Below, in pieces: positions 160-29,883 of a DNA stretch of 29,883 nt. Both the position numbers and the translations under genes were made by a program. A model generated the notes under the pieces. It was given only the letters and a program-made list of their open reading frames with translations. It was not told the DNA's origin and ran no database searches. The stretch's first letter is position 1. Every line of letters begins with the position of its first letter. The DNA is from a virus: positions 1-29,883 of IMG/VR virus record IMGVR_UViG_3300045996_000080; one strand, written 5' to 3'.

Positions 160-179
160 CTACACAGAGAAAGAGAACG

Positions 180-6293: not shown

Positions 6294-6317
6294 TGATCAG
6301 ACAAAGGAGAATGCAGA

Positions 6318-7290: not shown

Positions 7291-7294
7291 CGAC

Positions 7295-7792
7295 ATGCGC
7301 AAGTTGGTCGTGGCGGCGGCATTTGTGGTGGGGTTGCTGGTGGGCGGATGCTGGATGACGGCTGACGCTCAGGTGCCGGACTCGATTCAGGCCGCGCTCG
7401 ATCGGCAGGCGCCGGGCGCAATGGCTAAGGGCGGGCTGCTCATGAGCCGGGACTCGATCTTCGATGTGGACACGATCTTCGTTCGTCAGTACGATCCACC
7501 GGCAGTGTATGATCTCTGGTGGAAGGAAGTCCAGCACTGCGCCGGGATCAAGGGCACGCTGTACGCTTGGTCATGGATCGCTGTGCCGGGTGATGGGTTC
7601 ATGGTCAGGGGCGCCGGGCCCTTCCCCGGCTACACGGCAGTTGAGCAGAGCAACTTCCTCGTGCTTGAGAAGTACATCTACAACAAGCTGCTGATTCAGC
7701 ACGAGATGCTGCACGCGCTGCTCTGGATGAAAGGATTCGGCGCCGGACATGACACCGGGCACTTCGAGATGTGCGAGCTTCAGGCGCAGTAA
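7295..7792 (+). CDS. Secreted or lipid-anchored HExxH protein, metallopeptidase-like
   Basis: A 165-residue protein. ATG 7295 is preferred over an in-frame GTG 66 bases upstream because it begins directly with a signal sequence (MRKLVVAAAFVVGLLVGG) and follows a GAAGGGA purine run. VGGC at 16-19 is a possible lipobox with C19 as lipidation site; alternatively, signal peptidase I could cut after ADA at 23-25. HEMLH at 136-140 is a zinc-binding motif, followed by GHDTGHFEMC at 151-160. C82 and C160 could form a disulfide. The pattern of a VPGDGF strand, a VVxHEMLHALL-like helix, GH and a terminal Cys resembles secreted proteins I associate with Gemmatimonadota. It is probably an exported cargo protein acting on the infected cell's envelope. 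The catalytic role is inferred. Confidence 0.6.
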   Translation: MRKLVVAAAFVVGLLVGGCWMTADAQVPDSIQAALDRQAPGAMAKGGLLMSRDSIFDVDTIFVRQYDPPAVYDLWWKEVQHCAGIKGTLYAWSWIAVPGDGFMVRGAGPFPGYTAVEQSNFLVLEKYIYNKLLIQHEMLHALLWMKGFGAGHDTGHFEMCELQAQ

Positions 7793-7795
7793 GGA

Positions 7796-7822
7796 AAAGG
7801 GCCCCAGCGATCGGGGCCCTTT
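7796..7822. terminator. Bidirectional rho-independent terminator
   Basis: AAAGGGCCCC (7796-7805) and GGGGCCCTTT (7813-7822) form a perfect 10-bp stem with a 7-base loop. On the plus strand TTTCTCTT follows; on the minus strand TTTTCC follows. The hairpin sits 3 bases after the last plus-strand gene and 7 bases beyond the last minus-strand ORF, so it can end transcription from both converging modules. Confidence 0.9.
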
Positions 7823-7829
7823 CTCTTGC

Positions 7830-7895
7830 TTACTTCACCGTGCCAGCCGAGCCCATCGGGGGGCCGAAGACTAGCGCCAGAAACCACTCGATCAT
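7830..7895 (-). CDS. Hydrophobic 21-aa peptide at the end of the late operon
   Basis: ATG at 7895 overlaps the stop of the 1239-residue virion protein as ATGA, and the frame ends in TAA at 7830. GGGAGGTGAG (7901-7910) lies 5-9 bases upstream and is an excellent ribosome binding site. The peptide starts MIEWFLALVFGPPMG and ends in a short polar tail, so it could form one short membrane segment. It ends just before the terminator. The overlap and binding site argue for translation. Function is unknown; a small membrane or lysis-timing peptide is possible. Confidence 0.55.
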   Translation of the reverse strand: MIEWFLALVFGPPMGSAGTVK

Positions 7896-13122: not shown

Positions 13123-14261
13123 TAGAAGTCACTCCCCTCGTCGTCATTGAGCAGCCAATTATCCGCGCCGGTGCCAGCGCTGTTCTGCTGCGCCTTCGCG
13201 GTAGTCAGATCAATGCTGGCGGGGTTCAGAATCTCTTCCTTCGTCGCGCGCCCGCCCTTGATCATGAGCAACTGAATCAGCTTGTTCCGAAGCTGCTTCT
13301 TGTACTCAAGGTTCGGCTGCAAGTCGCCCGGCTGCGGGATGTAGATACGGAACGCCCGCTTGATCTCATCCTTGTTGAGCGCCGCGCCTGAAGTCTCGCG
13401 TACGTAAGCGTCCATGAACTGATTGGCCGCCACGTTGAACTTCTGTTCGTTGGCATCGAGCCCTTCGTTGACGCCTGCCACCGTCGCCAGCCACGCGAGA
13501 CGATCCGGGGCCGGGGCGTTGTCGAGCACGGGGCCCACTTCCTTCGCCAGCCGTGCCATGAGCCCGGTGTCAGCCTCACTCACGCTCGGACGAACCGCCG
13601 CATCCCGGGCGAGCCCAAGCCGCTCGCGCGCAATGTCGAGGTTGGCGCCGCGCAGGTTCAGGCCCGCTTCCTGAAGCTCAAGACGCGCCTCAGCGAGCCG
13701 CTGTGCGTTCTCGTAGCTGCCGTCGTCCTTGATCTCCTGCACCTTGCCGGTGAGCTTCTCGATCTGGTAGATGCGCCCATTCTTCTGCATGTACGTGTAC
13801 GGATTCGAGAAGGGACTGTTCCGGCTCAGGCGCAGAGCGTTGGCGATCGAGACAAGCTCGCTCGCCGTCTCCGTGTCGCCGTAGCTCGCGTACTCGTACG
13901 CAGCGTTGGTGAGCCGGTTGACCTTCTGCTCAGGCGTCTCGCCTTCCTGCGGGGCGTACTTGCCCTGAAGCCCCGAGCGCGCAATGCGGATGCGCTCGGC
14001 TTCCTTTGCCTTGTCGCCCAAGAGCTTCTGCCGCTCCGCCTGATCAATGTTCTCTTGATAAGTCTTGCGCCCCACATCGAGTCCGGTCGCCAGCGAAGTG
14101 CCGAACGTCGCGCCGGGCTGGGACGAATGACCCAGCATTGCAATACCGGCGTTGAATAGCGAGTTCCGCCCGAGAGACTTGAGCATCTCAGGCGGAATGA
14201 GGCTGGGATCAACGTTCTGATCCTGCGGCCCGAACAGTTGAGACAGGAACGGGACGGTCAC
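13122..14261 (-). CDS. Putative internal virion protein, coiled-coil rich
   Basis: A 379-residue protein. The start chosen is GTG 14261: GGAGGT (14266-14271) lies 4 bases upstream, and the longer frame would run into the upstream gene's coding end. It begins MTVPFLSQLFGPQDQNV, then has a helical Glu/Lys/Arg region (about 70-130), a YMQKNGRIYQIEKLTGKVQ segment, a long helical stretch (about 190-230) and a polar C-terminus ending in an acidic LNDDEGSDF. There is no transmembrane block, so it is probably a soluble core or channel component comparable to T7 gp15 by position. Specific homology is not recognised. Confidence 0.55.
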   Translation of the reverse strand: MTVPFLSQLFGPQDQNVDPSLIPPEMLKSLGRNSLFNAGIAMLGHSSQPGATFGTSLATGLDVGRKTYQENIDQAERQKLLGDKAKEAERIRIARSGLQGKYAPQEGETPEQKVNRLTNAAYEYASYGDTETASELVSIANALRLSRNSPFSNPYTYMQKNGRIYQIEKLTGKVQEIKDDGSYENAQRLAEARLELQEAGLNLRGANLDIARERLGLARDAAVRPSVSEADTGLMARLAKEVGPVLDNAPAPDRLAWLATVAGVNEGLDANEQKFNVAANQFMDAYVRETSGAALNKDEIKRAFRIYIPQPGDLQPNLEYKKQLRNKLIQLLMIKGGRATKEEILNPASIDLTTAKAQQNSAGTGADNWLLNDDEGSDF

Positions 14262-14263
14262 GG

Positions 14264-15049
14264 TTACCTCCGGTACACCGGGGGAGCCCACCCAGCGCTC
14301 GCCCAATTAAAAGGCTGCTGCGCCGGTGCCTGATAGCTGCCATCGGGCAGGCCAGCGAAATACTCAGGGGGCACAGAGCCACCGGCGCCCGGGACAGACG
14401 GCGCAGCGGGCATCCCGCCGAAGCCGAGCCCCTTGCTGATCGCGCCCCCGAGAGGGCCGCCGAAGATCGTCGCGCCAGCGCCCACCAGCCCGCCGAGCAC
14501 AGAGCCGCCCGGCTGCTTGGTCGTGGTCGTCTGCCCGCCGTACTGGAAGACGGGGTTCATCATCTGCCCGGGAAGCTGCTGAAGCCCGGTCCACCCTTCG
14601 AGCCCCATAGCCGCCGCACGAGCCGCGCGAGCCTGAGCGTCGTTGAATCCCTGATACGCGAAGTTCGCCTCAGCGTCAGCTTGACGGCTCGCCACATCCG
14701 CGAGTGCCTGCCCGGAGACAAGCCCGGCGCGAGAGCCACCGAAGGCGCCCGCCTGCGTCGCCCGCTGATCCGCGAAGTTGAGTGCCGAACTCGCCGCGTG
14801 GCCGAAGCCCTCACGCATCCGAGCAAGCACCTGATCGTTGTAGGGATTCATGAATTGCGCGAAGGCGTCCATGTCGCCCGTCAGCGCATTGAAGCCAAGC
14901 TGGCCCGCATTGGCGGCGCCGCTGGTAAGCCCGGTGTACTCAGGGCCCCCGAGCACTCCCCGCGTGCGCTGATCGAGGTAGTTGCGCCCGCTCTGCGTGA
15001 GTTGATCGGGAGTGACTGTCTGCTTGGTAGTTCCGCCGCCCTTAGACAT
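14264..15049 (-). CDS. Internal virion protein, 'AFGGSR' type
   Basis: A 261-residue protein starting at ATG 15049; an 8-base overlap joins it to the upstream gene's stop. A longer TTG start two codons upstream is less likely. The start MSKGGGTTKQTV resembles podophage core proteins beginning with Gly/Ser/Thr-rich tails. The block FMNPYNDQVLARMREG...RATQAGAFGGSRAGLVSG at about 65-115 is characteristic of a family in marine and soil podophages whose members have an NPY...QxGAFGGSR signature and are usually annotated as internal or tail structural proteins. A Gly-rich hydrophobic block (about 185-215) follows. It is probably equivalent in position to T7 gp14. Confidence 0.6.
   Translation of the reverse strand: MSKGGGTTKQTVTPDQLTQSGRNYLDQRTRGVLGGPEYTGLTSGAANAGQLGFNALTGDMDAFAQFMNPYNDQVLARMREGFGHAASSALNFADQRATQAGAFGGSRAGLVSGQALADVASRQADAEANFAYQGFNDAQARAARAAAMGLEGWTGLQQLPGQMMNPVFQYGGQTTTTKQPGGSVLGGLVGAGATIFGGPLGGAISKGLGFGGMPAAPSVPGAGGSVPPEYFAGLPDGSYQAPAQQPFNWASAGWAPPVYRR
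14266..14271 (-). promoter_or_regulatory. Ribosome binding site fixing the GTG start at 14261
   Basis: On the minus strand GGAGGT is followed after 4 bases by GTG ACC GTC. It overlaps the TAA of the upstream gene (14264-14266), so ribosomes finishing that gene could restart here. Confidence 0.7.
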
Positions 15050-15416
15050 GAGCAAGCTCTTTCGAGTAAACTGTTGCGACCGATTCGTAACCGCGCTTCC
15101 GCGTCATGAACGATCGAGCCCATCCGTGGCGGCCGGTAGCGGTGACCGCTGCACATCCCATCGAAGCTGCCCACGCTTCAATCTCGGGGAACATATCTTC
15201 GATCTCTTCCATCTCTCCGCCACCAAGGAACATGTTCAGTACCTTGCGCTGCGGAAAGACGACGATCTCTGTGATGATGATTGACCGTGGCCGGGCGAAG
15301 ACCTGCATTGCCCCTGCTTGTACGGATTCCTGCACGTCCTCGAATGTATGCGTTCCACCTGAATATCGCAATGCGCCTTCGATCTGCGCCCGGTACAATT
15401 CCAGAGGTGTGAACAT
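15042..15416 (-). CDS. GNAT-like small phage protein
   Basis: A 124-residue protein. ATG 15416 starts one base after the TGA of the upstream 57-residue gene; ATG 15425 would add three residues and overlap it. The sequence has RSIIITEIVVFPQRKVLNMFLGG, then an acidic helix (EEIEDMFPEIEAWAASMGC), then ATGRHGWARSF and a terminal GYE...YSKEL strand. This strand-helix-strand order, with GRxGW and a final KEL strand, is that of small GNAT-fold proteins common near podophage virion genes; T7 gp13 is a comparable case. No clear acetyl-CoA loop is visible, so it may be a non-catalytic assembly factor. Confidence 0.5.
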   Translation of the reverse strand: MFTPLELYRAQIEGALRYSGGTHTFEDVQESVQAGAMQVFARPRSIIITEIVVFPQRKVLNMFLGGGEMEEIEDMFPEIEAWAASMGCAAVTATGRHGWARSFMTRKRGYESVATVYSKELAHV

Positions 15417-15417
15417 A

Positions 15418-15591
15418 TCACGCATTACCCCGGGTGTTTCCGCGCGGCCACAACTGCCCGAACTCGGGCCGGGTGGCGCCCTCGCCCCCGGCGACTTCGC
15501 CCGGGTAAATCCGGGCGATTTCCTCAAGGTCAATCGAGGGCAGCGTGGGGCTTGCCGCCATAGGCACGGGGCTCAGAGTCTCGCCAGCCAT
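15418..15591 (-). CDS. Small hypothetical protein, 57 aa
   Basis: ATG 15591 lies 3 bases after the stop of the 292-residue gene, and TGA (15418-15420) lies one base before the next start. The frame fills the only gap in this part of the operon. The product starts MAGETLSPVPMAASPTLPS, has an IDLEEIARIYPGEVAGG segment, and ends Arg/Asn/Gly-rich. No family is recognised. Its tight packing between neighbours and normal GC-rich third positions make it likely to be real. Confidence 0.6.
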   Translation of the reverse strand: MAGETLSPVPMAASPTLPSIDLEEIARIYPGEVAGGEGATRPEFGQLWPRGNTRGNA

Positions 15592-15594
15592 AGA

Positions 15595-16473
15595 TCACTC
15601 GTAGAGGAACGCAGGCGAGATGTGGGTGGCGCCCGCGAGAGCGGTCACCACGCCAGCCGCGATCTGCGTTGGCATGTAGGTTCGGGTTGTGCCGAGCACG
15701 GTACAGGTAAAGGTTGTGCCCACCGGGTAGCTGACTCGGATGATTCCAACAATCTGAAGCCCCATCTCGGACGGCCCGAGCGGATAGAGTTGGGGATAGA
15801 CGCCCACCTTGCTATCGAGCGTAGCATCCGAAGCGTTGGTGATGACGGCCGGGAAGTAGAAGGCGTTCCCGTTCATGGGCGCGGCCGAATTGGCAAGATA
15901 GCCGTTCGTCGCAACGGTTGTGGCGCCCCACCGCAGGCTCAGGAATCCGGTCGTCTGTGCGACGCCCGAGCTATTCCGGCGGCGCTCGATCGAGATGCCG
16001 AGCGTGTTTGTCTGCGCCCACGACGTGCCCGAAGCCGCCAGATGAATCCAGATGCGGCCAGAGTCGCCCGAAGCGTAGTGCGTCATGGCGTTCGCGTTCG
16101 TGACGGTCTGCCCGAAGAACGCCACACCGGAATCGTGCATGATGTTCGTCAGGTTGCCCGCACCGTCGTGGCCGGTGCCGATCTGCAAGCGGATTCCGAA
16201 GCAGTTGGCAGTCGAGGTGGCCCCGTACTGGATTTTCACGTACAGCGGACTCGTAGACTGCGCCGTGTCAGCCATTGCCCAAATCTCCGTGACGCGGGCA
16301 CTGTTGGCTACGCCGGTCCACGTCACGGTGTTCCAATCGGACCCAGCCGCGAACGTCTGAGAAGTCAGCGTCCACCCGAAGGTGGAGAAACACTCGCTGA
16401 ACCACTTCCCCGTTGCGCGGAAGGTGGCGTCGCTGGTGTGCGACATGACCGTTGTCGTAGTCCGGGTAGCCAT
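15595..16473 (-). CDS. Putative virion appendage or decoration protein, beta-rich
   Basis: A 292-residue protein with ATG 16473 directly abutting the upstream TAA. GGAG lies 7 bases before the start. It is rich in Thr, Ser, Ala and Gly with few charged residues, typical of exposed beta-structured phage proteins. Recognisable segments are PLYVKIQYGATS and GIRLQIGTGHDGAGNLTN near 75-105 and SLRWGATTVATNGY near 180. It follows the GYGITDA-containing fibre gene, so a role in the tail spike, fibre tip or surface decoration is likely. No enzymatic motif was seen. Confidence 0.45.
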   Translation of the reverse strand: MATRTTTTVMSHTSDATFRATGKWFSECFSTFGWTLTSQTFAAGSDWNTVTWTGVANSARVTEIWAMADTAQSTSPLYVKIQYGATSTANCFGIRLQIGTGHDGAGNLTNIMHDSGVAFFGQTVTNANAMTHYASGDSGRIWIHLAASGTSWAQTNTLGISIERRRNSSGVAQTTGFLSLRWGATTVATNGYLANSAAPMNGNAFYFPAVITNASDATLDSKVGVYPQLYPLGPSEMGLQIVGIIRVSYPVGTTFTCTVLGTTRTYMPTQIAAGVVTALAGATHISPAFLYE

Positions 16474-17064
16474 TTAGTTCTCCAAGTTCATGCGAGTGAA
16501 AGTCACCGTCACCGTGCTCGTGCCTGCCGATTTGTTCGTAATCGCATAGTAGATCGTGGTCACCGGCGAGCCGTCCCGATTCGTGTAGCCGATCAGCGGC
16601 GCAGTCGGAATCGTCAGGTGGCTCGCGTCAAACAAGAACTCCGCCAATACCGGCGCGTCGTTCGTGGGATCGTCCGCAATGTCGCGCGCTGCGTCAGCCG
16701 TCCGCTCCGCCGCCGTGCCGTACAGCCTCACCCACGCAGCGCGATCGGCCACAGCATTCAGAATGAACCCGCTCTTGCCCAGCGCAATCGTCCCGTTCTC
16801 GGTCGCGTCCACGGCAAGGCTCGCCGTGGTTACCTGCACGGTGTCACGTTCGATCTTCGCCTGCGCGTCCGTGATGCCGTAGCCCGCGAGCGTGGTGGGC
16901 GTGCCGGTGATGTCCTCCCACGCTGCCGTAGCTACCGAGCCCGCTTCGCCCGCGAGCCCCTGAACGCCAGCGAGCCACGTAGCCACCTCCCGGCGGAAGG
17001 CGGCTTCGTTGTCGTAGCTGTACCTGTCCCGGGGCGGCTGCGGGAACCGGGGAAGGCGGCTCAT
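16474..17064 (-). CDS. Tail fibre protein with GYGITDA repeat unit
   Basis: A 196-residue protein. ATG 17064 overlaps the nozzle stop as ATGA and has GAGGG 7 bases upstream; a longer upstream frame is rejected because it would lie inside the nozzle gene. After a polar N-terminus (MSRLPRFPQPPRDRYSYDN) and a short helix, the segment AWEDITGTPTTLAGYGITDA is the hallmark repeat of phage tail fibres, here present once. The rest is beta-rich and Thr-rich. It probably forms a short fibre or fibre adaptor joined to the tail nozzle. Confidence 0.7.
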   Translation of the reverse strand: MSRLPRFPQPPRDRYSYDNEAAFRREVATWLAGVQGLAGEAGSVATAAWEDITGTPTTLAGYGITDAQAKIERDTVQVTTASLAVDATENGTIALGKSGFILNAVADRAAWVRLYGTAAERTADAARDIADDPTNDAPVLAEFLFDASHLTIPTAPLIGYTNRDGSPVTTIYYAITNKSAGTSTVTVTFTRMNLEN

Positions 17065-20000
17065 CGGCGGCCCTCTTGGATGATCCCCAGCCGGGTTACC
17101 CCGATCCGCCAATTCTCCCCAGCGCTCGCCTCTTCGAGCCGCAAGCGTACCTGCCGAGCGGCGAAGCGCACCGAAGTCGGATTCGTCAGCGTGTACGGGC
17201 CCCGCTCAACCTCTGTCTCCGTGGGGAAGAAGCCCGTGTAGAAGCGGGCCCGCACGTCGCCAAGGTTCTTCTCATCGGGCACGATCCGCTGCACCCGGTA
17301 AACGTGGTCGCCGTCACCGATCTCGATCGGGCCGGACTCGATGAACGGAACCAAGACAAGGTTGCCGTCCGCGCTGATCGTCACGTCATCGGGGTCAAGT
17401 CCGGCGCTGCCGCTCAACTCGGCCGAGACGCCCGTCACCTCGAAGTTCGCCGTGAGCCCGATCAGGGGCGGGGAGGTGTCGGTCCCGCACTTGAAATACT
17501 CGATCGCAAAATCCTGCGTCGAGTCGGTACGGCACTCGATCGAGGGGCGGGGAACCGAAGAGTAGGTATTGTCGTGATCGGCAATGAGGTAGTTGCCGAA
17601 CGACGCCCGCACAATGTTGTTGTCGAGCAACTCGATCGTGAGTTCGTGCGTGCCTGCGGCCGGGCGCGGAATCGTCAAGTTACTGAGCGAAGTCTGCGCG
17701 CCAGCGGCGAAGCGAAGCAGCGTCAGGATGCAGGTAGACGTTGTGGCGAATTGCAGAGTCGCGTGATAGCCGTTCTGCGCCACAAGATCAGTCATGAGCC
17801 CCACTCCCGCGCTGCCGCCCGTGAACATGCTGCCAAGGGCGTTCAGGTTGATACCGATCGTCGCCCTGAACTCCGTTCCCGCTGCCGTGTCCGCATTCGA
17901 GGAACCGTGACGGCTCACCGGCGCCGTCAGGCCCCGGGCATCCGCCTTGTTGTTCTCGATCGTCATAGCCACGGGCGAGCCTACCGGGATCGCCGTCCAC
18001 GCGAACGCCGAAGACCCGTCCGGCGTGTGCGCCGTCAGTGCCGTGCCACTGGTATCCACGAAGTTGTCTTCGTAGCCGGTGGGCGCCGTAGCGTGCGGCC
18101 AGCCGCCCAACGTGCCCGCCTTGCCGCTGGTGTAGGTCGAGTCGGTCGTCTCGCACATGAGCACACCGTTGGCGTAGCCCCTCAGCGTGCTACCTACCAC
18201 GGTCAGGCTCAGGATGATGTCGCCCGGGAACATCGAGGACGGCACATCCACTTCCACCGGCGTGAAGATGTTCGCCCCGGCCGAATCGAGCCCCTTGAGC
18301 ACGAAGGTGGGGGCGGCGCCCTCAGTGCGAACGCCGAAGTAGTAGCCCGCCTTCGAGCTTGCGCCCGCCATGCGTGCGCCCACCCCGCCGAAGATGTCAC
18401 CAGAGTACGGGCCCGCCAGCAAGGCAAGGTCACCGGCCACGGTGTAGTCATTCGAGTCAAGCGCAATGTCAGCCACGTAGCAGGACTCGTTAGTGCCGTC
18501 CCGGCGCAAGAGCCCGTCGAGGAACACGAGATCGTCGCCCGCCGTCTTGAGCCAATCGAAGTCTTCCGGCGAGCCGCCCGGCGTGTGATCCTGCAAGGCC
18601 ACTTCAGGACTCACGTACGAAAGAGTGAAGTCCTCGTACGTGGGGCGCTGATCGCTTGAGCTACCGCCCGAAGAGTAGATACCGATCTTGCCCGCCGCCG
18701 AGAAAGTGGAGTCCTCAGCCCGCGAGATGACCACACCGTTCAGCAGCATTTCGATGAGCGTGCCGGTCACTCGGATCGAGAGCGTCTTCTGCGTCGTCAG
18801 CAGATTCCAGTTGGTATCCACGTACGGCGCGCCCAGCGTAGTAGTGACGCCCGCCGCGTCTACCACGAAAATCTGCATAGTGGGGTTGGTGCCATACGCC
18901 ACCCGAGCCCCATAGCCCGAGCGATCCGCCAGCGAGCCGCGCGCCATGATGCGCACGTCTTGGTTGCTGAGAGCGACTGCGCTCACGTTGCCGAGCGTGC
19001 AACTCACCATGTAGTCAGCGCTGACCGGCGACGTGTCCACCATGTGCTGAACTTCCTGCACCGGGCCGCCGCCCCAGCCGTCTTCCAGCCGGTTGCTCTG
19101 GATCGTGGTCAGGGCCCCCGGGCCCACAACCCGCGTCCAGCCCCCAAGCTCGCCTGAATAGGCATCGAGATCGGTGCCGTTGGTGGCGGTAAACGTGTCC
19201 ACCGTGGAATCAAGCGCGCCGCTCGTGGCCTCTTCGAGCGTGTCCGAGATCAGGGTGGGCGCCGGAATCGTGCGATCGCCACCGGCGGAAAGCTCGTGCG
19301 AGTAGATCGTGCCGAGCGAGTCGAACATCACCGGGTTGGGAACCGCGCCCCGGTCAATGGCCGCCGTGCGCGAGAGCGTGCCGGTCGTCCAGTGCTTCTC
19401 CCGGTAGTTGTAGATGACGTAGCGATCGTTCTCTTCCGAGCCGCTCGAAGGGTAGAAGAACCACACTTCCCCGAACTCCGAGATCGGGCAGGCGAAGACC
19501 TTCGCGCTCTGCGACGTATTGAAGTCATCGAACACGTAGTCGTGAACCGAGCAGGGCAGAGGGGTCACGAACCCGTCGAAGCCATAGAAGTTGTCGCGCC
19601 CCATCCAGAACGCAGTGGAGTCCACGATCGCCACAGCCTGCGGGCCCACGATGCCGCAGTTGTCACCTTCCTGCTTGAAGGAGTAGATGAACTCGCCGCC
19701 GATGTAGGTAGCGCTGTGAAGGTCCGCGTCAGTCCAGATCAGGGTGACAGCCTTCGTGCGCCGCCCGGTCATGATCCGGCCCTGCGTGATCAGCGAGTAG
19801 TCGCCCGCCGTATTGTCCACGGTGGCAGTCCAATCGGTCACTGAGTTCTGCGAAGCCCACATGACCTTGCGCACGTCGCCGTCCGCGCCCAGCGCCATGA
19901 TAAAGCGCTCGGGCGTGATCACGACGCCACGGTTCGGCTCAGGGGAGTTCTCCGCCACCTCAGCGATCGCGCCGGTGTCGCCCTCCCACACGTAGATGCG

Positions 20001-20910: not shown

Positions 20911-21366
20911 TCAACCTCCCATGAGTAGCCACGCCGAACCGACTTCGCGGCGCCGTACCTGCCATGCGTTCTTCTTCTTTTCGCCCGTCTTCGGGTCAGT
21001 CACGTACACCCACTTCTCCATCTCCGCCGCCGCAGCCTTCCAATCCTGCGCGTCTACCTTCTTCCGCAGGGTACTTCCGGCGTAGGCAGCGAGCCCGCAG
21101 TTGAAGCAGAAGTCAATGATCGCATTCAGCCGCCGCCCGCCCACATCCTTCAGCACTGGCGAGTGGCGAACCGCGCCCAGCGTGTAGTGCGCAATGTCTT
21201 CCATGAGCAACAGCGTCGCCTCTTGCTTCGTGATCGTGCGCCGCTCTTTCTCGGTGATCCGGTGCCCGTAACCCAGCGTCAGCTTGCCCGCCGCGCAGTA
21301 GTACGGGTGATCTACAAAGCCCTCAAACTCCTTGAGGTGATCGAGTAACTCACGCGCCGTGTCCAT
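20911..21366 (-). CDS. GH24 lysozyme (endolysin)
   Basis: A 151-residue T4-type lysozyme starting at ATG 21366 with AGGA about 4 bases upstream and a 17-base overlap with the holin-like gene. The catalytic Glu is E15 in EFEGF, and T30 lies in KLTLGYGH, with spacing equal to T4 E11/T26. The position of T4 D20 is occupied by C24 (PYYCAAG), a variation common in phage GH24 enzymes. RLNAIIDFCFNCG at about 79-91 matches the conserved second-lobe helix, and a basic GEKKKNAWQVRRREV ends the domain. No signal or SAR sequence is present, so it depends on a holin. It degrades peptidoglycan at the end of infection. Confidence 0.92.
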   Translation of the reverse strand: MDTARELLDHLKEFEGFVDHPYYCAAGKLTLGYGHRITEKERRTITKQEATLLLMEDIAHYTLGAVRHSPVLKDVGGRRLNAIIDFCFNCGLAAYAGSTLRKKVDAQDWKAAAAEMEKWVYVTDPKTGEKKKNAWQVRRREVGSAWLLMGG

Positions 21367-22366: not shown

Positions 22367-23002
22367 TCATCCGAATACGATTGGAAGGCGGATCGGCCGA
22401 AGGCTGGCCGCAAACTCTTCTTGGTCGCGCTTGTTAGCCAACCCGGCCACAGCGTCGTTGTAGTAGTTGAGCCAAGTAGGAATGCGCTCGTCGTGCTCAA
22501 GGAACGGGGCGGCCATGAGCAAGGTCGCCCACACGTACAGGTCCGGCGCCTCAGTCAGCAGCGAGTTGGTCGTCTGAGAGGCAGAGAGGGGCACAAGCGC
22601 CTCGTAGTAGGTCACCTGAGCGTCATAGGAGTCGTCAGGCGTAGGGCCCACGAGAAGCTCTTGGTCAACCACAGCCGCGAACTTCGGACGGCCCGGCGTG
22701 ATCATCCGGGCGCGCTGCTCCGCAAGCTGTTCCATCGAGCCGATGTGAATCGGTGTGTCGAGCGACTCGTCAGAGGTGACGAGGTTGATCGAGCGAAGCT
22801 CCCCGAAGTTGGTCAGGGCGCTCAGATCGGTTGCAAAGTCCGAAATGGTCAAGGTGGCCCGGAGCGTCTTGCGACGCACGTCCCGAGCCATCTTGGCTTC
22901 GGCCAGTTGAATCAGCGCAGGGATCGTATTGGTGAGATCATCTCTCAACAACCACGATGCCACTGCCGCTTGCAGCGTCGCGTACGACGTGATCGGGTCC
23001 AC
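22367..23002 (-). CDS. Head-tail adaptor protein
   Basis: A 211-residue protein starting at GTG 23002, with GAGGT (23008-23012) 5 bases upstream. The N-terminal half is helical with the adaptor pattern YATLQAAVASWLLRDDLTNTI followed by IQLAEAKMARDVRR. The middle has the PIHIGSMEQLAEQRARM and LLVGPTPDDSYDAQVTYYE segments typical of podovirus/SU10-type adaptor proteins, which form the ring joining the portal to the tail nozzle. The 5' end overlaps the glycosyltransferase 3' end by 65 bases. Confidence 0.8.
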   Translation of the reverse strand: MDPITSYATLQAAVASWLLRDDLTNTIPALIQLAEAKMARDVRRKTLRATLTISDFATDLSALTNFGELRSINLVTSDESLDTPIHIGSMEQLAEQRARMITPGRPKFAAVVDQELLVGPTPDDSYDAQVTYYEALVPLSASQTTNSLLTEAPDLYVWATLLMAAPFLEHDERIPTWLNYYNDAVAGLANKRDQEEFAASLRPIRLPIVFG

Positions 23003-23714
23003 TCGCTACCTCAGCGCTTTGCACTTCCTCGCGCTGAACGAGCGCGTGATCATGGGAATACTCCCACGAACCTCCGTGACGAATATGCTTGGACAAGTCC
23101 TGATGCACAAGTACGTCAATCCCTGCTGTGCGCAATTTGTTAAAGAAGTTGATGTCCTCCCCAACAAAGAAGTGCCCTTCCCGGCCGTCCGGCAGAGCCT
23201 TGGTGTAATGCTCGATCGGGAACCACGGTTGCGGGACGAACCTGAACACGTCCATGTCAATCAGGGTGGCCCCGAGCCCCATGCTCGCCACCTTCACGAG
23301 CCCGGTGCTCTCATCGGTCGTGTACAGCCGCTTCTCGCCTAGCTCATCGAGGAAGGCAGTGGGCCGGATCGGGAAGCGCCGGGTGGCGTAGTTCACGCCC
23401 ACCACGGGCGACTTGGCCTCAAGCATCTCGTGCAGCAGATTCGGCGGGAAGCGCATATCCGAATCGAGGAAGAGAATGTGCGTCGCGTTGAGCGCCAGCG
23501 CCGCGTACACAAGTCCGGTGCGCTGGGACGGCAGCAGCGTGCCCTTGTTCATTTCGATGTGCAAGTCCACGTCGCGCCGGTTGAACGCCATCGAGCCGGT
23601 CAGCGTCGCCAGATCGTACGCGAAGCCCGCGTCCACCTGATCCCCGCATGGAATAGCGATCACCACGTAGTAAGGCGCCCGTACCCGGTGCGCGCTCTCG
23701 ATCACTTCGCTCAT
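22938..23714 (-). CDS. GT-A family glycosyltransferase
   Basis: A 258-residue protein starting at ATG 23714, overlapping the upstream stop as ATGA. A Rossmann-like N-terminal half (APYYVVIAIPCGDQVDAGF) leads to LFLDSDMRF, where D84-S-D86 is the DxD metal/nucleotide-sugar motif. GEDINFFNKL at 185-194 fits the acceptor-binding acidic helix, and VHQDLSKHIRH near 203-212 holds candidate metal-binding His residues. No membrane anchor is present. It would transfer a sugar from a nucleotide donor, perhaps to a virion protein, phage DNA or a host component. Its place between capsid and adaptor genes favours a virion-linked target, but that is inference. The last ~21 codons are shared with the adaptor in another frame. 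Confidence 0.8.
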   Translation of the reverse strand: MSEVIESAHRVRAPYYVVIAIPCGDQVDAGFAYDLATLTGSMAFNRRDVDLHIEMNKGTLLPSQRTGLVYAALALNATHILFLDSDMRFPPNLLHEMLEAKSPVVGVNYATRRFPIRPTAFLDELGEKRLYTTDESTGLVKVASMGLGATLIDMDVFRFVPQPWFPIEHYTKALPDGREGHFFVGEDINFFNKLRTAGIDVLVHQDLSKHIRHGGSWEYSHDHALVQREEVQSAEVASGPDHVVRDAASGSGIVVVER

Positions 23715-24064
23715 AGTCTTCCCTCGTTGGTGCGGAGTTTGAGGTTGTCCCGATCGTTGAGGTACTTCACGAAGCGCTCGTCATCGAGGATCGTCTCGCC
23801 GTTCGGGCCGCCGATGATCCCTTCCCGCTTGAGGCGGAAGTATTCGCTGACAGGGATCGAAGCGACGTGGGTTGCAAACGCCTTCGGATCGAACATCCGG
23901 CCGGTGTGCCGGTCAGCCTTGTGCGACATGATCGCCGCGTTGTTCTCAAGGATCGGGCTGACGTTCTGCTGCGTCTCGATCGTGAAGTTCTCGCCGTCCG
24001 CGTCTGAGTGCCAGATACGGCGGATGCCAGCGAGAGGGTTCTCAGAGAAGATGCGGGAATGCAC
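23711..24064 (-). CDS. Conserved phage hypothetical protein, 117 aa
   Basis: The start chosen is GTG 24064, 2 bases after the upstream TAA, with GGAG 9 bases before it. A TTG at 24079 would add 5 residues but has no binding site. The sequence has IRRIWHSDADGENFTIETQQNVSP (split into IRRIWHSDADGENF and TIETQQNVSPILENN) and later IPVSEYFRLKREGII and a C-terminal KYLNDRDNLKLRTNEG. This W-H-x-D...F.I.T.Q.V..I...N plan, ending in an LR-T-x-G motif, recurs in small podophage proteins near adaptor genes. Function is unknown; head-tail joining or assembly is possible. Confidence 0.5.
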   Translation of the reverse strand: MHSRIFSENPLAGIRRIWHSDADGENFTIETQQNVSPILENNAAIMSHKADRHTGRMFDPKAFATHVASIPVSEYFRLKREGIIGGPNGETILDDERFVKYLNDRDNLKLRTNEGRL

Positions 24065-24066
24065 GG

Positions 24067-24666
24067 TTAGAAACTCCAAGAGAAGGTTACGCCCGCGACT
24101 GCATCGAACTCCCCCTTGGGGTTGATCCCCGCCGCGCCGCCCACCCCGAGCTTGGGCAGAAGGTGCGAGAAGAAGCTCGGCTTCGATGCGTCCACCAGAT
24201 TGTCAGTCGCCTCAACCACGGTTCCGAGCCCGTCGCTCAGGGCCGCCGTGGCGCGCTTCTGATCCTCGAAGGCGACGCTCAGGGAGTCGTTGGCGAGCTT
24301 CAGGGAGTCCACCACAGCCTCAGTGGCCGCGAGAGCCACCTCTGCCGCCTCGATCACCGGCGCGCAGGTATCCGGGGCGCTGGCGGCGACTGTGACGAAC
24401 TCTACCTTGCGGGCTCTGGCGCGCTCTTCGGCCCGCGCCGCTGCCGCGAGCGCGTCCCGGGCCGCAGCCCGCGCGATCGCCGCATTGGCCGCCTCAGACT
24501 CAGCCACCCGCTTCTGCTCGGCAGCGTACTCGATCGCCGCCTTGGCAGTGCTTCGGGCCGTCGCCAGCCGGGTATCCCAATGGTCTGAGAGCTTGTTACC
24601 TACGAGCGCGATCGCCACGGCGCCCACAACGAGCAGGACATGTGTGCGGATTGACAGCCGGTTCAC
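24067..24666 (-). CDS. Membrane-anchored coiled-coil protein, possible spanin
   Basis: A 199-residue protein starting at GTG 24666 after GAAAGGG (4-base spacer). One N-terminal membrane helix (about 8-23, THVLLVVGAVAIALVG) is followed by a long Ala/Arg/Glu coiled coil (about 30-90). Then come C101, a second helical region (about 105-150) and a C-terminal LLPKLGVGGAAGINPKG, ending in a VAGVTFSWSF strand with terminal Phe. An inner-membrane anchor with a periplasmic coiled coil is the layout of i-spanins, and the final amphipathic strand with terminal Phe resembles an outer-membrane-type C-terminus. It might therefore bridge both membranes. It lies about 2.3 kb upstream of the XhlA-like gene, so the spanin role is a hypothesis. 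Confidence 0.45.
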   Translation of the reverse strand: MNRLSIRTHVLLVVGAVAIALVGNKLSDHWDTRLATARSTAKAAIEYAAEQKRVAESEAANAAIARAAARDALAAAARAEERARARKVEFVTVAASAPDTCAPVIEAAEVALAATEAVVDSLKLANDSLSVAFEDQKRATAALSDGLGTVVEATDNLVDASKPSFFSHLLPKLGVGGAAGINPKGEFDAVAGVTFSWSF

Positions 24667-24703: not shown

Positions 24704-24736
24704 TCGCCAGATGACTCAATTTACGTCATCTGGCGA
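24704..24736 (-). terminator. Terminator-like hairpin downstream of the cargo gene
   Basis: TCGCCAGATGAC (24704-24715) and GTCATCTGGCGA (24725-24736) form a perfect 12-bp stem with a 9-base AT-rich loop, 23 bases after the stop of the secreted cargo gene. In the transcribed direction it is followed by TTGTTGTTT, a moderate T-rich tract. It probably reduces readthrough to the spanin-like gene or protects the 3' end. Confidence 0.6.
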
Positions 24737-24759
24737 AAATTGTCCACAGCCTGCGTTAA

Positions 24760-25953
24760 CTATCGGACAGGCACGGGCTTATACGGCAGGGTCTTCACGA
24801 ACGCGAGCGCGTCCCGAATCGCGGTCTGGTACGCCGCGTTGGTCGCCCAATCCGGGCCGTCATACTTCCACGTCATGAGCCCACCGTGGGAATGGGGCGC
24901 CAGCGCCTTGACCACAGTGAGAAGCTGCGCCGGTGTCATCCGGCAGTTGGGGGCCCGCGAGCCGCGCCGCCCGCCCTCCGAAGCGCAGTCCCACGTCCCG
25001 TCCCGGTCCTGCGTCCCGCCGTTGATCACGTTCAGGCTGAACCGGACCTTGTAGCCACTCTGAGCCGCCTGCGCGAGCACAGCGTCACGCCACGTCGTCA
25101 GGTTCCCGAAGCGGTGTGAATACTGGTAGGTCAGGAAGTCGCAGACCTTCAGCGGCTTCGTAGGCTCCCACACAGTGAGGTGCCCTGACATCCCCATCGG
25201 TACGCCCGGGAAGAGCGTCTTAGCGAACCCGCAGAGCGAATCCGCCCGAGCCTTGCTGATCGTGCCGGGCGGGCCCCAAGTGTTCCCTACGACATTCCCG
25301 GCGCCATCGTCGCCCCCGCTGACCCATGCCTCATCCATGATGTTGAAGCCGGTGATCAGGCCCTCAGCGTGCGCCTTCTGCACCGCAGCCACGACAGCCG
25401 GGGCGGCGATCGCTTTCATGGCGGAGTCGAACCGAGCCCGGGAGAACACAGCTACGCCCGCCGAATCTCGCAGGCAGTTGCCCATGTTCTCCTTCGAGTG
25501 CCCGCCGCAGGGAAGGTTGGGCTGGAACGGGACGCCGCGAGCGCGAGCCTCAGCAATGTTATCCAAGAGGTACGCAGCCTTGTTGCTGGCCGATCCCCCG
25601 TCGTGCGTGAAGGGCCCGCTCGAAGTCTCGTTGAAGTAGCCGGTGGGGCCCCAAATCTGATTGGGGAGGTTCGCCGGTGCCTTCACTCGGACCTGCACGG
25701 AGTCGTTGAACCGCGCCACGTACTGATGCCAGAAGGTGATTCGCGTCGTGTCGCCAGACACCGCAGTGTCCGCACCACTGGCGAGCGGACGCTCGATCGT
25801 GTCCGTGACAAAGATCGTGTCCGGTTTCGCCGGGACTTCAACCACACGAGTGTAGAACTCCTTCGCAGGCGTACCGGGATGGGTGGAATCGGGTGCTTGC
25901 GCCGCCAGTGGCGTAGCAAAGATTCCCGCGATAAGAAGAAACGCATGTCGCAT
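24760..25953 (-). CDS. Secreted hydrolase-like cargo protein
   Basis: A 397-residue exported protein. ATG 25953 is chosen because a signal peptide (MRHAFLLIAGIFATPLAAQ) begins there; the frame extends 14 codons upstream without a good start. Cleavage is expected near residue 18-19. Residues 20-65 are a Pro/Thr/Asp-rich linker with a DTIFVTDTIERP phrase. The remainder looks like an alpha/beta barrel: ARGVPFQPNLPCGGHS, LITGFNIMDEAWVSGG (E208 a candidate acid), GVPMGMSGHLTVWEP, LTYQYSHRFG, YKVRFSLNVINGG and GGLMTWKYDGPDW. Six cysteines (C149, C160, C241, C271, C323, C337) suit disulfides in an exported protein. It resembles glycosidase-like barrels but no GH family is identified. It sits between capsid and spanin-like genes, bracketed by hairpins, like a moron. 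Confidence 0.55.
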   Translation of the reverse strand: MRHAFLLIAGIFATPLAAQAPDSTHPGTPAKEFYTRVVEVPAKPDTIFVTDTIERPLASGADTAVSGDTTRITFWHQYVARFNDSVQVRVKAPANLPNQIWGPTGYFNETSSGPFTHDGGSASNKAAYLLDNIAEARARGVPFQPNLPCGGHSKENMGNCLRDSAGVAVFSRARFDSAMKAIAAPAVVAAVQKAHAEGLITGFNIMDEAWVSGGDDGAGNVVGNTWGPPGTISKARADSLCGFAKTLFPGVPMGMSGHLTVWEPTKPLKVCDFLTYQYSHRFGNLTTWRDAVLAQAAQSGYKVRFSLNVINGGTQDRDGTWDCASEGGRRGSRAPNCRMTPAQLLTVVKALAPHSHGGLMTWKYDGPDWATNAAYQTAIRDALAFVKTLPYKPVPVR

Positions 25954-25984
25954 GGCACACTTTCTTGTGCAGATGGAAACGGAA

Positions 25985-26012
25985 ATGCCCGCCACAAATA
26001 TGTGACGGGCAT
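25985..26012 (-). terminator. Terminator-like hairpin after the capsid gene
   Basis: ATGCCCG (25985-25991) plus CACA (25993-25996) pair with TGTG (26001-26004) plus CGGGCAT (26006-26012) around an AATA loop; there is one mismatch. In the transcribed direction the stem is followed by TTTCCGTTTCC. Lying between the capsid stop (26041) and the cargo start (25953), it could partly terminate transcription and keep downstream genes lower than capsid. Confidence 0.6.
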
Positions 26013-26040
26013 CCCGGGGTCACAATCCCCCTGCCTTGGC

Positions 26041-27003
26041 TTAGGCAGTGGTCAGGTCAGCAACGAGGGCGTGCTGCGCCTCGTGGTTCACCTTGAGCAG
26101 ATACTCAACGATCAGCATCCGCTTCTCAGCGTCGCCGGTCTTGGCGAGCTTGACCACAGCGTAAGGACGCAGGTAGTCAACGCTGATCCCGCTCGGAGTC
26201 AGCAGCCACGCATCACGGGCACGCTGATTCAGATTGGTGTGGATGGCGAGCTTGCCGAAATCGGAAACGTAAACGTCTACGGCGCCGATCACCGCAACCG
26301 CGCTCTCCTTGGTGTTCACATGCACCTGCGCGATACCGTCGAACGTGGTCGAGATGAGCGCCTTGTTGAAGCTACCCACCGACAGAACAGTGGGACGCCC
26401 ACCCGCATCGTACGCCAGCTTGACAGCGTTGCGCAGCATCGTCTCGGTAAAGGCGGCCTGAGTGCCGTCAGTACGAGCGGCGCTCGGGAGAGTGGTGTAC
26501 ACCGGGCTCGCCCCGCCAGTGCCGAACACGTCATTGCTCTTCACCCACGCGCCCATACCAGCGGTCACGCGAGCAGTCGTGGTGTTACCAGCATTGGCGC
26601 CCTTGTTCTCCAACATGGAAACTTCCATGTCGCGCTTCAGCGCCGCAGCCTTGAGCGAAGTCTGATACGCAAGCTCGCTCTTCCGGCCAGCCTTGTCCAC
26701 AACCTCAAGGGTATCGGCAAGGATGATCAGCTTCCGCGCGATCTCAGCGTAGGTGCCCACGCGGACAGTCGGAGTGATCGCCGGGAACGACGCAATGTCG
26801 TCACCCTCAAGCTGCTGGTTGGTCGAGCTACGAGCATCCAGCGTGTCCTGCTGCCACTCCTTAAAAGTGGTCTTCGTGGAGCCCCGGCCCACGGACGACA
26901 TAAAGGGCGTCTCTTCTGGCTCGATATTATAGATCGTATCGGTCAGATTCTCCCTGATACCCTTGGCCGTATAGCCGGTATAGGTGTTAGTAACGATAGA
27001 CAT
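26041..27003 (-). CDS. Major capsid protein, SU10 type (DUF5309)
   Basis: A 320-residue protein starting at ATG 27003 with GAAGGG 8-9 bases upstream. The N-terminus MSIVTNTYTGYTAKGIREN followed by LTDTIYNIEPEETPFMSS and FKEWQQDTLDARSS is the signature of the SU10 major capsid protein/DUF5309 family, an HK97-fold shell protein. The GDDIASFPAI segment (about 65-75), the long helix around residues 90-130 and the C-terminal WLLTPSGISVDYLRPYAVV also fit. It follows the scaffold gene, as expected. It builds the icosahedral head. It lacks an N-terminal delta domain, in keeping with a separate scaffold protein. Confidence 0.9.
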   Translation of the reverse strand: MSIVTNTYTGYTAKGIRENLTDTIYNIEPEETPFMSSVGRGSTKTTFKEWQQDTLDARSSTNQQLEGDDIASFPAITPTVRVGTYAEIARKLIILADTLEVVDKAGRKSELAYQTSLKAAALKRDMEVSMLENKGANAGNTTTARVTAGMGAWVKSNDVFGTGGASPVYTTLPSAARTDGTQAAFTETMLRNAVKLAYDAGGRPTVLSVGSFNKALISTTFDGIAQVHVNTKESAVAVIGAVDVYVSDFGKLAIHTNLNQRARDAWLLTPSGISVDYLRPYAVVKLAKTGDAEKRMLIVEYLLKVNHEAQHALVADLTTA

Positions 27004-27024: not shown

Positions 27025-28017
27025 TCAGTCCAGTAGTGCTTCGAGTGCGCGAGCGCCACTACGGACGCTGCGTTCGGTCGCGTGAGCACGAAGTGCGCGA
27101 TCTCCCTTGCTTACAGGCTTACGCTCAACGCTGGTGCCCGGAGCCGAGACTTCCTTCTCCGCCCGCTCCGCCTGCTTCTTCGGATCGGGAGTGGCCTTGG
27201 ACACAGCATGTTGACGCTGCGCCGCTGCGAGCAGCCGAATCACACGGGCATCGGTGACTGACTGAAGCTCTTGCTGGGTGAACCCAGCGACGTTGATCGC
27301 ATACTGCGCGATCTTGGTCAGGGCGGTTTTCTTCTTGCTCTCATCCTTCCACTCGGGGAAGTAGTTGAGCAGCTTCTCGTTCTCGCCCTTTACGTACTCA
27401 GAGAACTTCGCGTCGTTGTCCCGCTTCACTGCCGCCTCAGCCTCAGCGCGAGCCTGAGAGACAGTTTCCATGCGCTTCTTGTGCTCCTGCCACTGGATAT
27501 AGCGAGAAGCCAACTGATCGGCCGGAATCTCCCGGCGTAGCTTCTCCCAATCGGGCTCTTTCGGCGTGTTCGCCTTCAGAGTCTCGTCCAGCGTCTTCAA
27601 CCTTTCGGCAAGTGCTTCGCGTTCCTTGGAAATGGCTTCCTTCTCGGCTTGAGCCTGCTTCCGTTCCTCCGCCACACTCTGCGTCTTGCGAGTGTAGTCA
27701 GAGCGGCGCATGTACCCCGCCTTGAGTTCGTCCTCGTCAACCTCCACCTCTTCCTCGCCCAGCTTCAGCTTGTGCTTCGGCTTGGCCGGTGGGGTTTCCT
27801 CTTCCAAGTCGCCCTCGGATTCGTCCGGCTCAGGAGTGGACTCTTCCTCTTCGGGCACTTCACCCTCGGGCTGCTTCCCCTCGGGCTGCTCGTCGGACGC
27901 GCCGGGTTCCTCGATGTAGTCAAGGAGGGCTTCGTTACCGAACAAGCTCGATGCGGCTGCGGCGACAGTCATCGGGTTGATGTTATTGTCAGCGCCACGA
28001 TCGGGTGTATCGGCCAT
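27025..28017 (-). CDS. Capsid scaffolding protein
   Basis: A 330-residue highly charged protein. ATG 28017 (MADTPDRG) is chosen over an in-frame start 30 bases upstream because GGGAG lies about 11 bases before it. Residues ~35-85 are very acidic and Pro/Glu-rich. The segment HKLKLGEEEVEVDEDELKAG followed by YMRRSDYTRKTQSVAEERKQ (about 85-120) is the common signature of phage scaffold proteins. A long Lys/Glu/Ala coiled coil follows (about 105-200), and the C-terminus is basic (KGDRALRAHATERS). It organises capsid assembly and is then released. It lies between the small head gene and the major capsid protein. Confidence 0.85.
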   Translation of the reverse strand: MADTPDRGADNNINPMTVAAAASSLFGNEALLDYIEEPGASDEQPEGKQPEGEVPEEEESTPEPDESEGDLEEETPPAKPKHKLKLGEEEVEVDEDELKAGYMRRSDYTRKTQSVAEERKQAQAEKEAISKEREALAERLKTLDETLKANTPKEPDWEKLRREIPADQLASRYIQWQEHKKRMETVSQARAEAEAAVKRDNDAKFSEYVKGENEKLLNYFPEWKDESKKKTALTKIAQYAINVAGFTQQELQSVTDARVIRLLAAAQRQHAVSKATPDPKKQAERAEKEVSAPGTSVERKPVSKGDRALRAHATERSVRSGARALEALLD

Positions 28018-28052
28018 AACAGTATGTCTCCCGTGCAATTCTGTCAAGTGGG

Positions 28053-28319
28053 TCAGATTTCCTTCAGCCTACGCTCTTCGCGCCCGGCCTCAGAAATTGC
28101 CTGAACCCCTCGATCCACGAACGCCCTGAACTTGTCCTTCAGGCGCTCGAATGCACGGTAGTCGGAATGGGCGGCTTCCCGCTCATCCTGCGTGGCACCG
28201 GATTTCCACGCATCGAACAAATCCTGCTCGATCTCAGCAAACACCTCTTGGACAGCGGGGCGCGAGAGCAAATCCTCGATTAGCTGGCCCCGCTCGATCA
28301 CTGCGTCTCGGACGATCAC
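28053..28319 (-). CDS. Small head-assembly-associated protein, 88 aa
   Basis: GTG 28319 overlaps the portal stop as GTGA. The 88-residue product is helical and acidic, with LSRPAVQEVFAEIEQDL, FDAWKSGATQDEREAAHSDY and RAFERLKDKFRAFVDRG. The W-K/R-x-[ST]-x-x-x-x-x-R-E pattern recurs in small phage proteins placed between portal and capsid genes. The role is unknown, perhaps portal-associated assembly. Gene order and coupling to portal translation are the main support. Confidence 0.6.
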   Translation of the reverse strand: MIVRDAVIERGQLIEDLLSRPAVQEVFAEIEQDLFDAWKSGATQDEREAAHSDYRAFERLKDKFRAFVDRGVQAISEAGREERRLKEI

Positions 28320-29883
28320 TCAGCCGGGCTATCCTTGGCCTTGGCCGCCGCCGTCTCCCGGGCAACCTGCGCCTGAAGGTGAATCTTCTCGCGCTCAACG
28401 GCGATCTCCGCCGAGAGCTTCTCCCGAAACATCTGCACCTCAAGCTGCATCTCTCTGATCTTCAACTCAAACTCTTGGCGCATCTCAGCCATGTCAGCCG
28501 CCGCCTTGTTCTGAGTCTCCGCAATGTCGCTCTGCCTCTGCGCCTCGATCCTCTGCTGCTCGATCATGGGCTCTTGCTGCAAGCGCATCTGCTCGATCGC
28601 GTACTTCTGCGAAATCTCCTGCTTCTTGACGTTGAGTTCCTCTTGCTTCATGGCAAGCTCGCCCATCGTCTTGATCTTCTCCGCCTCAAGCGTCGCCTGC
28701 GCGAGCGCCTGCTCGGGGCTCGGCTGCGGCGGGGGCGGTTGCCACCCGGCCGGATCGGTGTAGTAGCGCTCCGGGTTCTCGATGCCCTGCAAGCGCAGGA
28801 TGTCAAGCCGGACGTTGTACGCCTGCGCGAGCCCGGTCAGCGGGGCGTTGAGCCCAAGCTGCGTCAGAATCGTGTCCTGATCCTGCTTGACCCCGAGCAG
28901 AATGGCGAGCTTGCGCTCTTCGATCCGGCCCAGCGCCACGTTAACGCGAACGTCCATGTCCGCGTTCCACGAGCGGGGATCAATCTCGGTCCACTTGCCG
29001 CGAAGCCGGACGGCGCGCTCGCGGGGTTGGTTCTCCACGACGAGCTTCAGCAGCCCCTTGAAGAGCGGCTTGAGAAGCTGCTCTGCGTAGATGCGGCCGA
29101 TAAGCTCAACCTGCTCCTTGTTCGATGCCACAGCCTCAGCCGCCGCATCCGGCGTGGTGGACTGAAGCGCGTCCATGTCGAGCCCGGCGGCGCCGTTCCC
29201 GATCCCCGTCCGCTGCTCCTTCTCGCCGCGCATGTATTCGAGGAAGGAGAAAATCTCCTTGCCCGCGAAGCTGTGCGTGAAGCTGTGCAGCACGTCACCG
29301 GGGCGGCCCTTGGTGCGGATGCCCGCGCCGATCTCCGTGTTCTGCACGTCCGCAATGCTGACCATGTTCTCTTGGAACGCAGTCCGTGGGAAGATGGACG
29401 CAGAGAGCGAGTCGAGCCCGCCACGTACCAGCGCCGAATTGACACGCTGCAAGTCCATCGTCCGATCGCTGACCGAACGAGCAACGATCTGGTGGGGCGT
29501 AGGGTACGGGCCCCACATAGCGAACGGGCGGCAACCGATCACCTTATTCGAGGTGACGAAGCAGTTGGGGCCCAGCGTGCAAATCTTCCGAAGTTCCTGC
29601 ACCCCGTCGCCGTTGAAGTCCACGAAGACGTAGTGCTCAACGTAGTCGTGCTCGTCGCCAGCTTCGCCGGTGGACGGGACAACGGGCTCTGCCATCACCC
29701 CATCGGGGATGCGCTCGATCGCTTCCTCTTGGGTCCGGTGCGACCAACCCGAAGTGCCGCCGTGCTCTTCGATGTCCTCTTCCGAGACGCCCATAGCGAC
29801 GAGATCGCCCCGGGTCTTGATCATCCGGTGCGCCATGTACTGAGCGGTTTCCACGTCCCGGGTGGGGCGCAGGAACAGAAGTT
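28316..29883 (-). CDS. P22-type portal protein (N-terminus outside window)
   Basis: The frame is open from the right edge to TGA at 28316-28318, giving more than 520 C-terminal residues. An internal GTG (29854) is not the true start: the frame continues upstream as LLFLRPTRD. Portal features are visible in CRPFAMWGPYPTPHQIVARS, VNSALVRGGLDSLSAS, the EKEQRTGIGNGAAGLDMD segment and EERKLAILLGVKQDQDTILTQ. This is the P22-like portal pattern, in which ARSVSDRTMDLQRV helices precede the clip. The last ~140 residues form a long Gln/Glu-rich coiled coil (EKIKTMGELAMKQEELNVKK and beyond). Twelve copies are expected to form the DNA channel at one vertex. Confidence 0.85.
   Translation of the reverse strand, partial: LLFLRPTRDVETAQYMAHRMIKTRGDLVAMGVSEEDIEEHGGTSGWSHRTQEEAIERIPDGVMAEPVVPSTGEAGDEHDYVEHYVFVDFNGDGVQELRKICTLGPNCFVTSNKVIGCRPFAMWGPYPTPHQIVARSVSDRTMDLQRVNSALVRGGLDSLSASIFPRTAFQENMVSIADVQNTEIGAGIRTKGRPGDVLHSFTHSFAGKEIFSFLEYMRGEKEQRTGIGNGAAGLDMDALQSTTPDAAAEAVASNKEQVELIGRIYAEQLLKPLFKGLLKLVVENQPRERAVRLRGKWTEIDPRSWNADMDVRVNVALGRIEERKLAILLGVKQDQDTILTQLGLNAPLTGLAQAYNVRLDILRLQGIENPERYYTDPAGWQPPPPQPSPEQALAQATLEAEKIKTMGELAMKQEELNVKKQEISQKYAIEQMRLQQEPMIEQQRIEAQRQSDIAETQNKAAADMAEMRQEFELKIREMQLEVQMFREKLSAEIAVEREKIHLQAQVARETAAAKAKDSPAE

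Follow-up and report, generated by a model that had tools for sequence, protein, structure and literature searches.

Glycoside hydrolases are common in exopolysaccharide (EPS) operons, and one of them, PslG, degrades its own polymer (PMC6813494). Like PslG, the exported hydrolases PgaB, BcsZ, WssD, AlgL and PssZ are encoded inside an EPS operon, as are the chromosomal orthologues of the phage protein described here, for which hydrolysis is predicted. While PslG is chromosomal and has two separate catalytic Glu residues (E165 and E276), the copy studied here is phage-borne, and its family has one Asp-Glu pair, no strand-7 Glu and no match to a GH family profile.

A phage connection is also described for WceF of Pantoea stewartii, an EPS-cluster glycosidase (PMC7949094). 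WceF is encoded in a bacterial EPS cluster and has the beta-helix fold of a phage tailspike; our case is the opposite, a barrel of an EPS operon that has moved into a phage. The GH5 endomannanase (PMC6786970) and the GH75 chitosanase (PMC9485262) of soil viruses are likewise host-style polysaccharide hydrolases in soil phages, but they are members of established GH families and have been interpreted as carbon-cycling enzymes, whereas the family reported here is unnamed and has its relatives in EPS export. Closest in fold is clan GH-A (GH5, GH10, GH42), in which the strand-4 'NEP' of GH5 aligns weakly with a 'DEP' of our family. The clan has a strand-7 nucleophile Glu; our family has neither this residue nor a profile match.

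A cargo gene inserted in the head block of an SU10-like phage

The window, that is, the whole 29.9-kb virus record (29,883 nucleotides) that was analysed, holds a head block of SU10-like type, encoded on the minus strand. Profile searches identify the portal (28316-29854), the scaffold (27025-28047), the SU10-type major capsid protein (26041-27003; Pfam SU10_MCP, E 5e-79) and the SU10 adaptor (22367-23002), all on that strand, as well as a lysozyme-type endolysin (20911-21366). The capsid gene ends 87 nt upstream of the cargo gene (24760-25953, minus strand). Downstream, on the same strand, follow genes for a protein with an N-terminal membrane helix and a coiled coil (24067-24666), a phrog_3982 protein (23711-24079) and a glycosyltransferase-like protein (22938-23714; phrog_1574, phrog_34859). 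No signs of a temperate life were found within the window.

Several other genes of the window deserve mention. The 24067-24666 protein, with its long coiled coil and aromatic C-terminus (GVTFSWSF), may be a spanin-like or envelope protein and is otherwise found only in the related contig L003. The glycosyltransferase-like gene lies within the head-adaptor block and is common to L003, L009, L010 and L012. A row of large ORFs at 57-16473 (minus strand; e.g. 7892-11611 with 1239 aa, 2744-5521 with 925 aa, and 11608-13122) gave weak PHROG matches at best and none of significance in Pfam; the phage group is little known, and these ORFs probably encode its tail or receptor-binding proteins. The product of 16474-17112 (minus strand) matches phrog_9627/phrog_15343 in its C-terminal part (E ~1e-18) and a head decoration family in its middle, and is likely a decoration or fibre protein.

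The cargo frame opens at ATG 25953 and encodes 397 aa. An alternative start, GTG 25995, falls within the hairpin on the capsid side. We favour the ATG because the N-terminus from there and the preceding AGAAAGTGT-CC are both kept in L002, the sole phage relative of the cargo protein. The protein begins with a signal-peptide-like stretch, MRHAFLLIAGIFATPLAAQA (residues ~1-20; 25894-25953, minus strand), conserved in L002, and continues with a Pro/Thr/Asp-rich linker (residues ~21-97; 25663-25893, minus strand) and a barrel domain (residues ~98-393; 24775-25662, minus strand). Its six cysteines are at positions 149, 160, 241, 271, 323 and 337. A signal-peptide protein with six cysteines directly after the capsid gene is what a sequence-only reading of this DNA had described, and this description holds. 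The GC3 of the gene (0.80) is similar to that of the remaining genes.

The cargo N-terminus is present in only 1 of 80 loci carrying the capsid protein, namely L002, a 4.3-kb contig with 85% capsid identity that has the cargo at the same place and ends after 71 cargo residues. The capsid proteins of the window and L002 differ at 15% of positions, and across this distance the cargo keeps an intact frame, the same site and the same start, with a moderate N-terminal dN/dS of ~0.41 (dN 0.21, dS 0.51, 62 codons). L003 (54% capsid identity) is without the cargo and has the order capsid, 24067-24666 homologue, phrog_3982, glycosyltransferase and adaptor. Since the 24067-24666 homologue directly follows the capsid gene there, the insertion site is marked, and the cargo is an insert between two genes that are adjacent in this relative, as expected of a moron or accessory late gene. 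A search of 44 whole records gave no additional carrier, and viral contigs searched with a 14-member profile gave no further phage member; a single APNCRMTP pattern match in viral contigs was set aside as chance. Based on the 80 capsid loci, L003 and the 44 records, the cargo is therefore an insert in one small clade, seen on two phage contigs only (the window and L002).

Stable hairpins lie 3' of the capsid gene (25982-26015, minus strand) and 3' of the cargo gene (24704-24736, minus strand). The two fold at -36.1 and -30.9 kcal/mol (z -5.0 and -5.3), and none of 200 shuffles was equally stable. The capsid-side hairpin recurs in cargo-less relatives (L003, L010, L014, L018, L020, L023, L027, L031 and others); the stem in L003 is nearly identical to that of the window (GATGCCCGCCGCC...GGCGGGCATTTTC), and other cargo-less relatives have hairpins of their own. 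Because relatives without the cargo carry one, this hairpin is an element of the capsid gene and no bracket of the cargo. Only the hairpin at 24704-24736 belongs with the insert, with which it may have arrived as a terminator. Neither hairpin is followed by a clean T-run or listed by the terminator scan, so that termination at both is a tentative assignment and terminator strength is doubtful. No sigma-70-like site was found upstream of the cargo gene, a consensus that may not be that of the presumed host group. Thereby, the moron architecture with a terminator-like hairpin on each side that was first proposed stands as to the insertion and the two hairpins themselves, and falls short as to a cargo-specific bracket and a promoter of its own.

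The barrel family belongs to one bacterial lineage

Searches of the cargo protein against Pfam, PHROGs, NCBIfam and PDB sequences gave nothing above chance, an NqrA_2nd match (E 0.14) being noise. The first searches of genomes and of phages and plasmids, with exact peptides or tblastn, found no match; the early genome scan took exact peptides, while the chromosomal relatives share only 29-44% identity with the phage protein. For its C-terminal ~300 residues against the barrel domain of the lipoproteins, the identity is 29-41%. A degenerate pattern, WGPxGTxxKARxD, chosen partly with proteins of Gemmatimonadota in mind, has six matches in 84,980 species genomes: five in Gemmatimonadales MAGs and one chance site. 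All five were afterwards confirmed by phmmer (E 2e-66 to 3e-10).

We counted members per genome with a profile of 14 sequences (A3); DNA polymerase rows in the search with it (E 0.3) were noise. Among the 102 genomes sampled from one Gemmatimonadales GTDB family, 11 have barrel members; the counts are 9 of 395 for the phylum and 0 of 199 for Acidobacteriota, a group that supplied no positive control. Well-sampled member genomes have 4-9 barrel copies each, and tandem double barrels occur in several genes (e.g. G048:C250, G046:C42 and G058:C33). The genomes with these copies (G045-G049, G058, G115, G255, G359 and G360) form a small part of one family, most sister genomes of which seem to be without the barrel.

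The phage barrel domain is of the same family as that of the Gemmatimonadales lipoproteins. The chromosomal proteins closest to the phage protein are mostly lipoproteins in which Ig-like repeats precede the barrel; in one related protein, PKD repeats follow it. The tree places the phage protein, with a long branch (1.23), inside this Ig-barrel orthologue group, which is separated from the paralogues by a branch with 100/100 support. Its identity to the members of this group is 29-41%. The phage protein has lost the Ig-like repeats, whose place is occupied by the linker, and it has no lipobox Cys, in contrast to most chromosomal relatives. The proposed host style of the protein is borne out: the homologues are chromosomal, from one bacterial lineage only, with one other phage contig, and the gene comes from that lineage, presumably the host or its kin. 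Judging only from the cargo, the phage would infect a Gemmatimonadales-type lineage.

Chromosomal orthologues sit in an exopolysaccharide export operon

The main point beyond the sequence-only reading is the place of the chromosomal orthologues in an EPS export operon. Pfam searches show that the neighbours in L084, L086, L087 and L088 include a Poly_export/SLBB protein (Wza/OPX). In L084 and L087 there are also a Wzz/AAA_31 protein (Wzc) and a GTP_EFTU protein, the latter with an APS kinase in L087 (CysN/C). In nine loci the relevant side of the orthologue is present on the contig, and with local profiles OPX/Wza and Wzc adjoin it in eight of these (L200-L203, L205-L207 and L209); in L209 a GT4 gene intervenes between the orthologue and OPX/Wzc. 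Only L204 departs from this, and its genome contains another copy of the orthologue that does have the operon beside it. Paralogue loci have the OPX/Wzc context in 1-2 of 18 cases (L226; weakly L223). Unlike the chromosomal orthologues, the phage copy itself is not in an EPS operon.

In most loci a GT4 gene lies on the opposite side of the orthologue. The same eight loci display a conserved Gemmatimonadales operon of the order GT4, barrel lipoprotein, OPX/Wza, Wzc and CysN/C. Farther along in one genome (L230) are a PAPS-reductase-domain protein, an ABC transporter, an HTTM protein, three sulfotransferases and a Wzx-like flippase. Based on this one genome and on CysN/C in several, the polymer of the operon is probably a sulfated EPS.

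A TIM barrel with a candidate active site

A single-sequence model was unusable (pLDDT 35). The model built from six sequences is a TIM barrel of middling confidence (pLDDT 55, pTM 0.55), for which the top PDB rows by Foldseek and VIA-align are all TIM-barrel glycosidases of GH5, GH10 and GH42; GH18 and GH20 are not among these top rows, though either may still be related. The best E-value rows are GH10 xylanases, and the best Z belongs to the GH5 mannanase 4awe (VIA Z 12.5; 4.4 A over 257 residues). Barrels are common as a fold.

Near-invariant residues over 35 sequences include F170, G198, D207, E208, W226, K245, P249, Q277, Y278, N308, G312, G313 and W362, and the phage protein keeps every one of them; H152 is invariant within the orthologue group. 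The D207-E208 pair at the end of strand 4 (codons 25330-25335, minus strand) is DE in 33 of 34 relatives, in a motif that reads MDEP in the relatives compared to MDEA in the phage protein. A weak profile alignment places 'TIIGH-LMDEP' on 'VVGYDLRNEP' of GH5, and the pair stands where clan GH-A has the strand-4 N-E acid/base, with Asp instead of Asn. D207-E208 is the proposed acid/base. At strand 7 no Glu is conserved in the 35 sequences, Asn308 and GG being invariant there, and because of this the family does not pass as a member of clan GH-A. Neighbouring Asp and Glu residues combined with Tyr and Trp recall enzymes with substrate-assisted catalysis, e.g. GH18/GH20. D207-E208, Y278 and W362 match such a pattern (a strand-4 carboxylate pair and a -1-site Tyr/Trp), with a spacing unlike the GH18 DxE.

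No GH family profile was found among the Pfam matches of the cargo protein or the A3 members, or among the NCBIfam matches of the cargo protein. By hhalign, GH5 reached a weak 32% probability in a pairwise test, and GH18 3.7%. As the profile comparisons with GH18, GH10 and GH5 were all weak, we claim no GH family, in agreement with the earlier failure to assign one. The barrel-type hydrolase read from the sequence is thus upheld as a barrel by a model nearest to glycosidases, and as a hydrolase it is still a prediction.

The cysteines vary pairwise, which is how disulfides of an exported protein should behave: 241/271 and 323/337 are common to the orthologues, 357/394 are both lost and 149/160 both gained. 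The phage copy has also lost the invariant Pro after Asp-Glu (P209) and Trp175. Because of these losses and the long branch, its activity may have changed.

Discussion

What is new here is the protein family, together with its link to an operon for EPS export and its likely target. We judge the chances to be about even that the cargo is an exported enzyme of EPS assembly, derived from the host and turned late in infection on the coat of that host. According to this model, the phage lineage took an accessory late gene from its host or the host's kin, where the product would be a lipoprotein with Ig-like repeats and a TIM barrel, belonging to a Wza/Wzc-type EPS operon. The phage version has dropped the lipid anchor and the Ig repeats; what it retains is the barrel, preceded by a signal peptide and a short linker. 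Its transcripts would start with the capsid gene, read through the capsid hairpin and be closed off by the hairpin of the cargo, and the product would be exported and then disulfide-bonded. The Asp207-Glu208/Tyr278/Asn308/Trp362 site would cleave the EPS of the host, probably a sulfated one, and the loosened coat would let progeny leave and spread through the matrix. Easier release or spread is the presumed benefit.

The position within the head gene block might point to a virion-associated depolymerase or structural protein, since depolymerases acting on capsules are frequent among phages. We reject this as very improbable. The protein has a signal peptide and no PHROG match, and thus none of the homology to tail proteins that marks a tailspike depolymerase; its homologues are chromosomal, rather than virion structural proteins only, and nearly all relatives with the same head genes lack it. 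The claim that it is not an obvious virion part therefore survives. An endolysin reading was likewise dropped, the lysozyme-type endolysin being located elsewhere. There is also only a slight chance that the gene is a recent functionless passenger fixed by drift. Its patchy presence, with one other contig, and a merely moderate dN/dS would suit a passenger, but the frame is intact despite 15% capsid divergence, site and start are the same in both phages, and the site residues and paired cysteines are retained.

Other explanations grant the protein a function of another kind. The barrel could be a non-enzyme, or no longer an enzyme, and serve the EPS machinery by binding sugar or modulating export; the phage copy would then jam or redirect EPS export, or coat the cell against superinfection. 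The lack of the strand-7 Glu across the whole family, the tandem double barrels (e.g. in G048:C250) and the loss of P209 and W175 in the phage copy would fit. Nonetheless we hold this to be unlikely, as the polar and aromatic set at the strand ends (DE, Y, N, W) is kept across very divergent paralogues and the phage, as for a catalytic site. Alternatively, a carbon-acquisition auxiliary metabolic gene would export an enzyme that breaks down plant or microbial polysaccharide outside the cell and feeds the infected host. Active glycosidases do occur in soil viruses (GH5 endomannanase, PMC6786970; GH75 chitosanase, PMC9485262), and the nearest folds are GH5 mannanases and GH10 xylanases. This account is quite unlikely in our estimate, because the chromosomal orthologues are found in an EPS export operon and not near polymer-degrading genes.

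Overall, the idea of an exported host-style barrel hydrolase as cargo of the late operon gains support from our analysis, with the working hydrolase as its predicted part. A bolder reading, which we hold to be somewhat less likely than not, is that the barrel represents an uncatalogued glycosidase family confined to one soil lineage and tied to its (sulfated) EPS operon. Its catalysis would depend on an Asp-Glu pair, where clan GH-A uses two Glu residues apart from each other. A lytic SU10-like phage would have taken one member as a secreted late 'coat opener', which the cell produces against its own slime.

The protein family was missed by the libraries searched, and its job is suggested via the operon context; the cargo also points to a possible host lineage of this soil phage, which is otherwise unassigned. 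If our reading is true, the phage uses the host's own EPS-trimming enzyme on the coat of that host in place of a virion tailspike, and some of the 'carbon-cycling' glycosidase genes of soil phages might share this coat-opening purpose.
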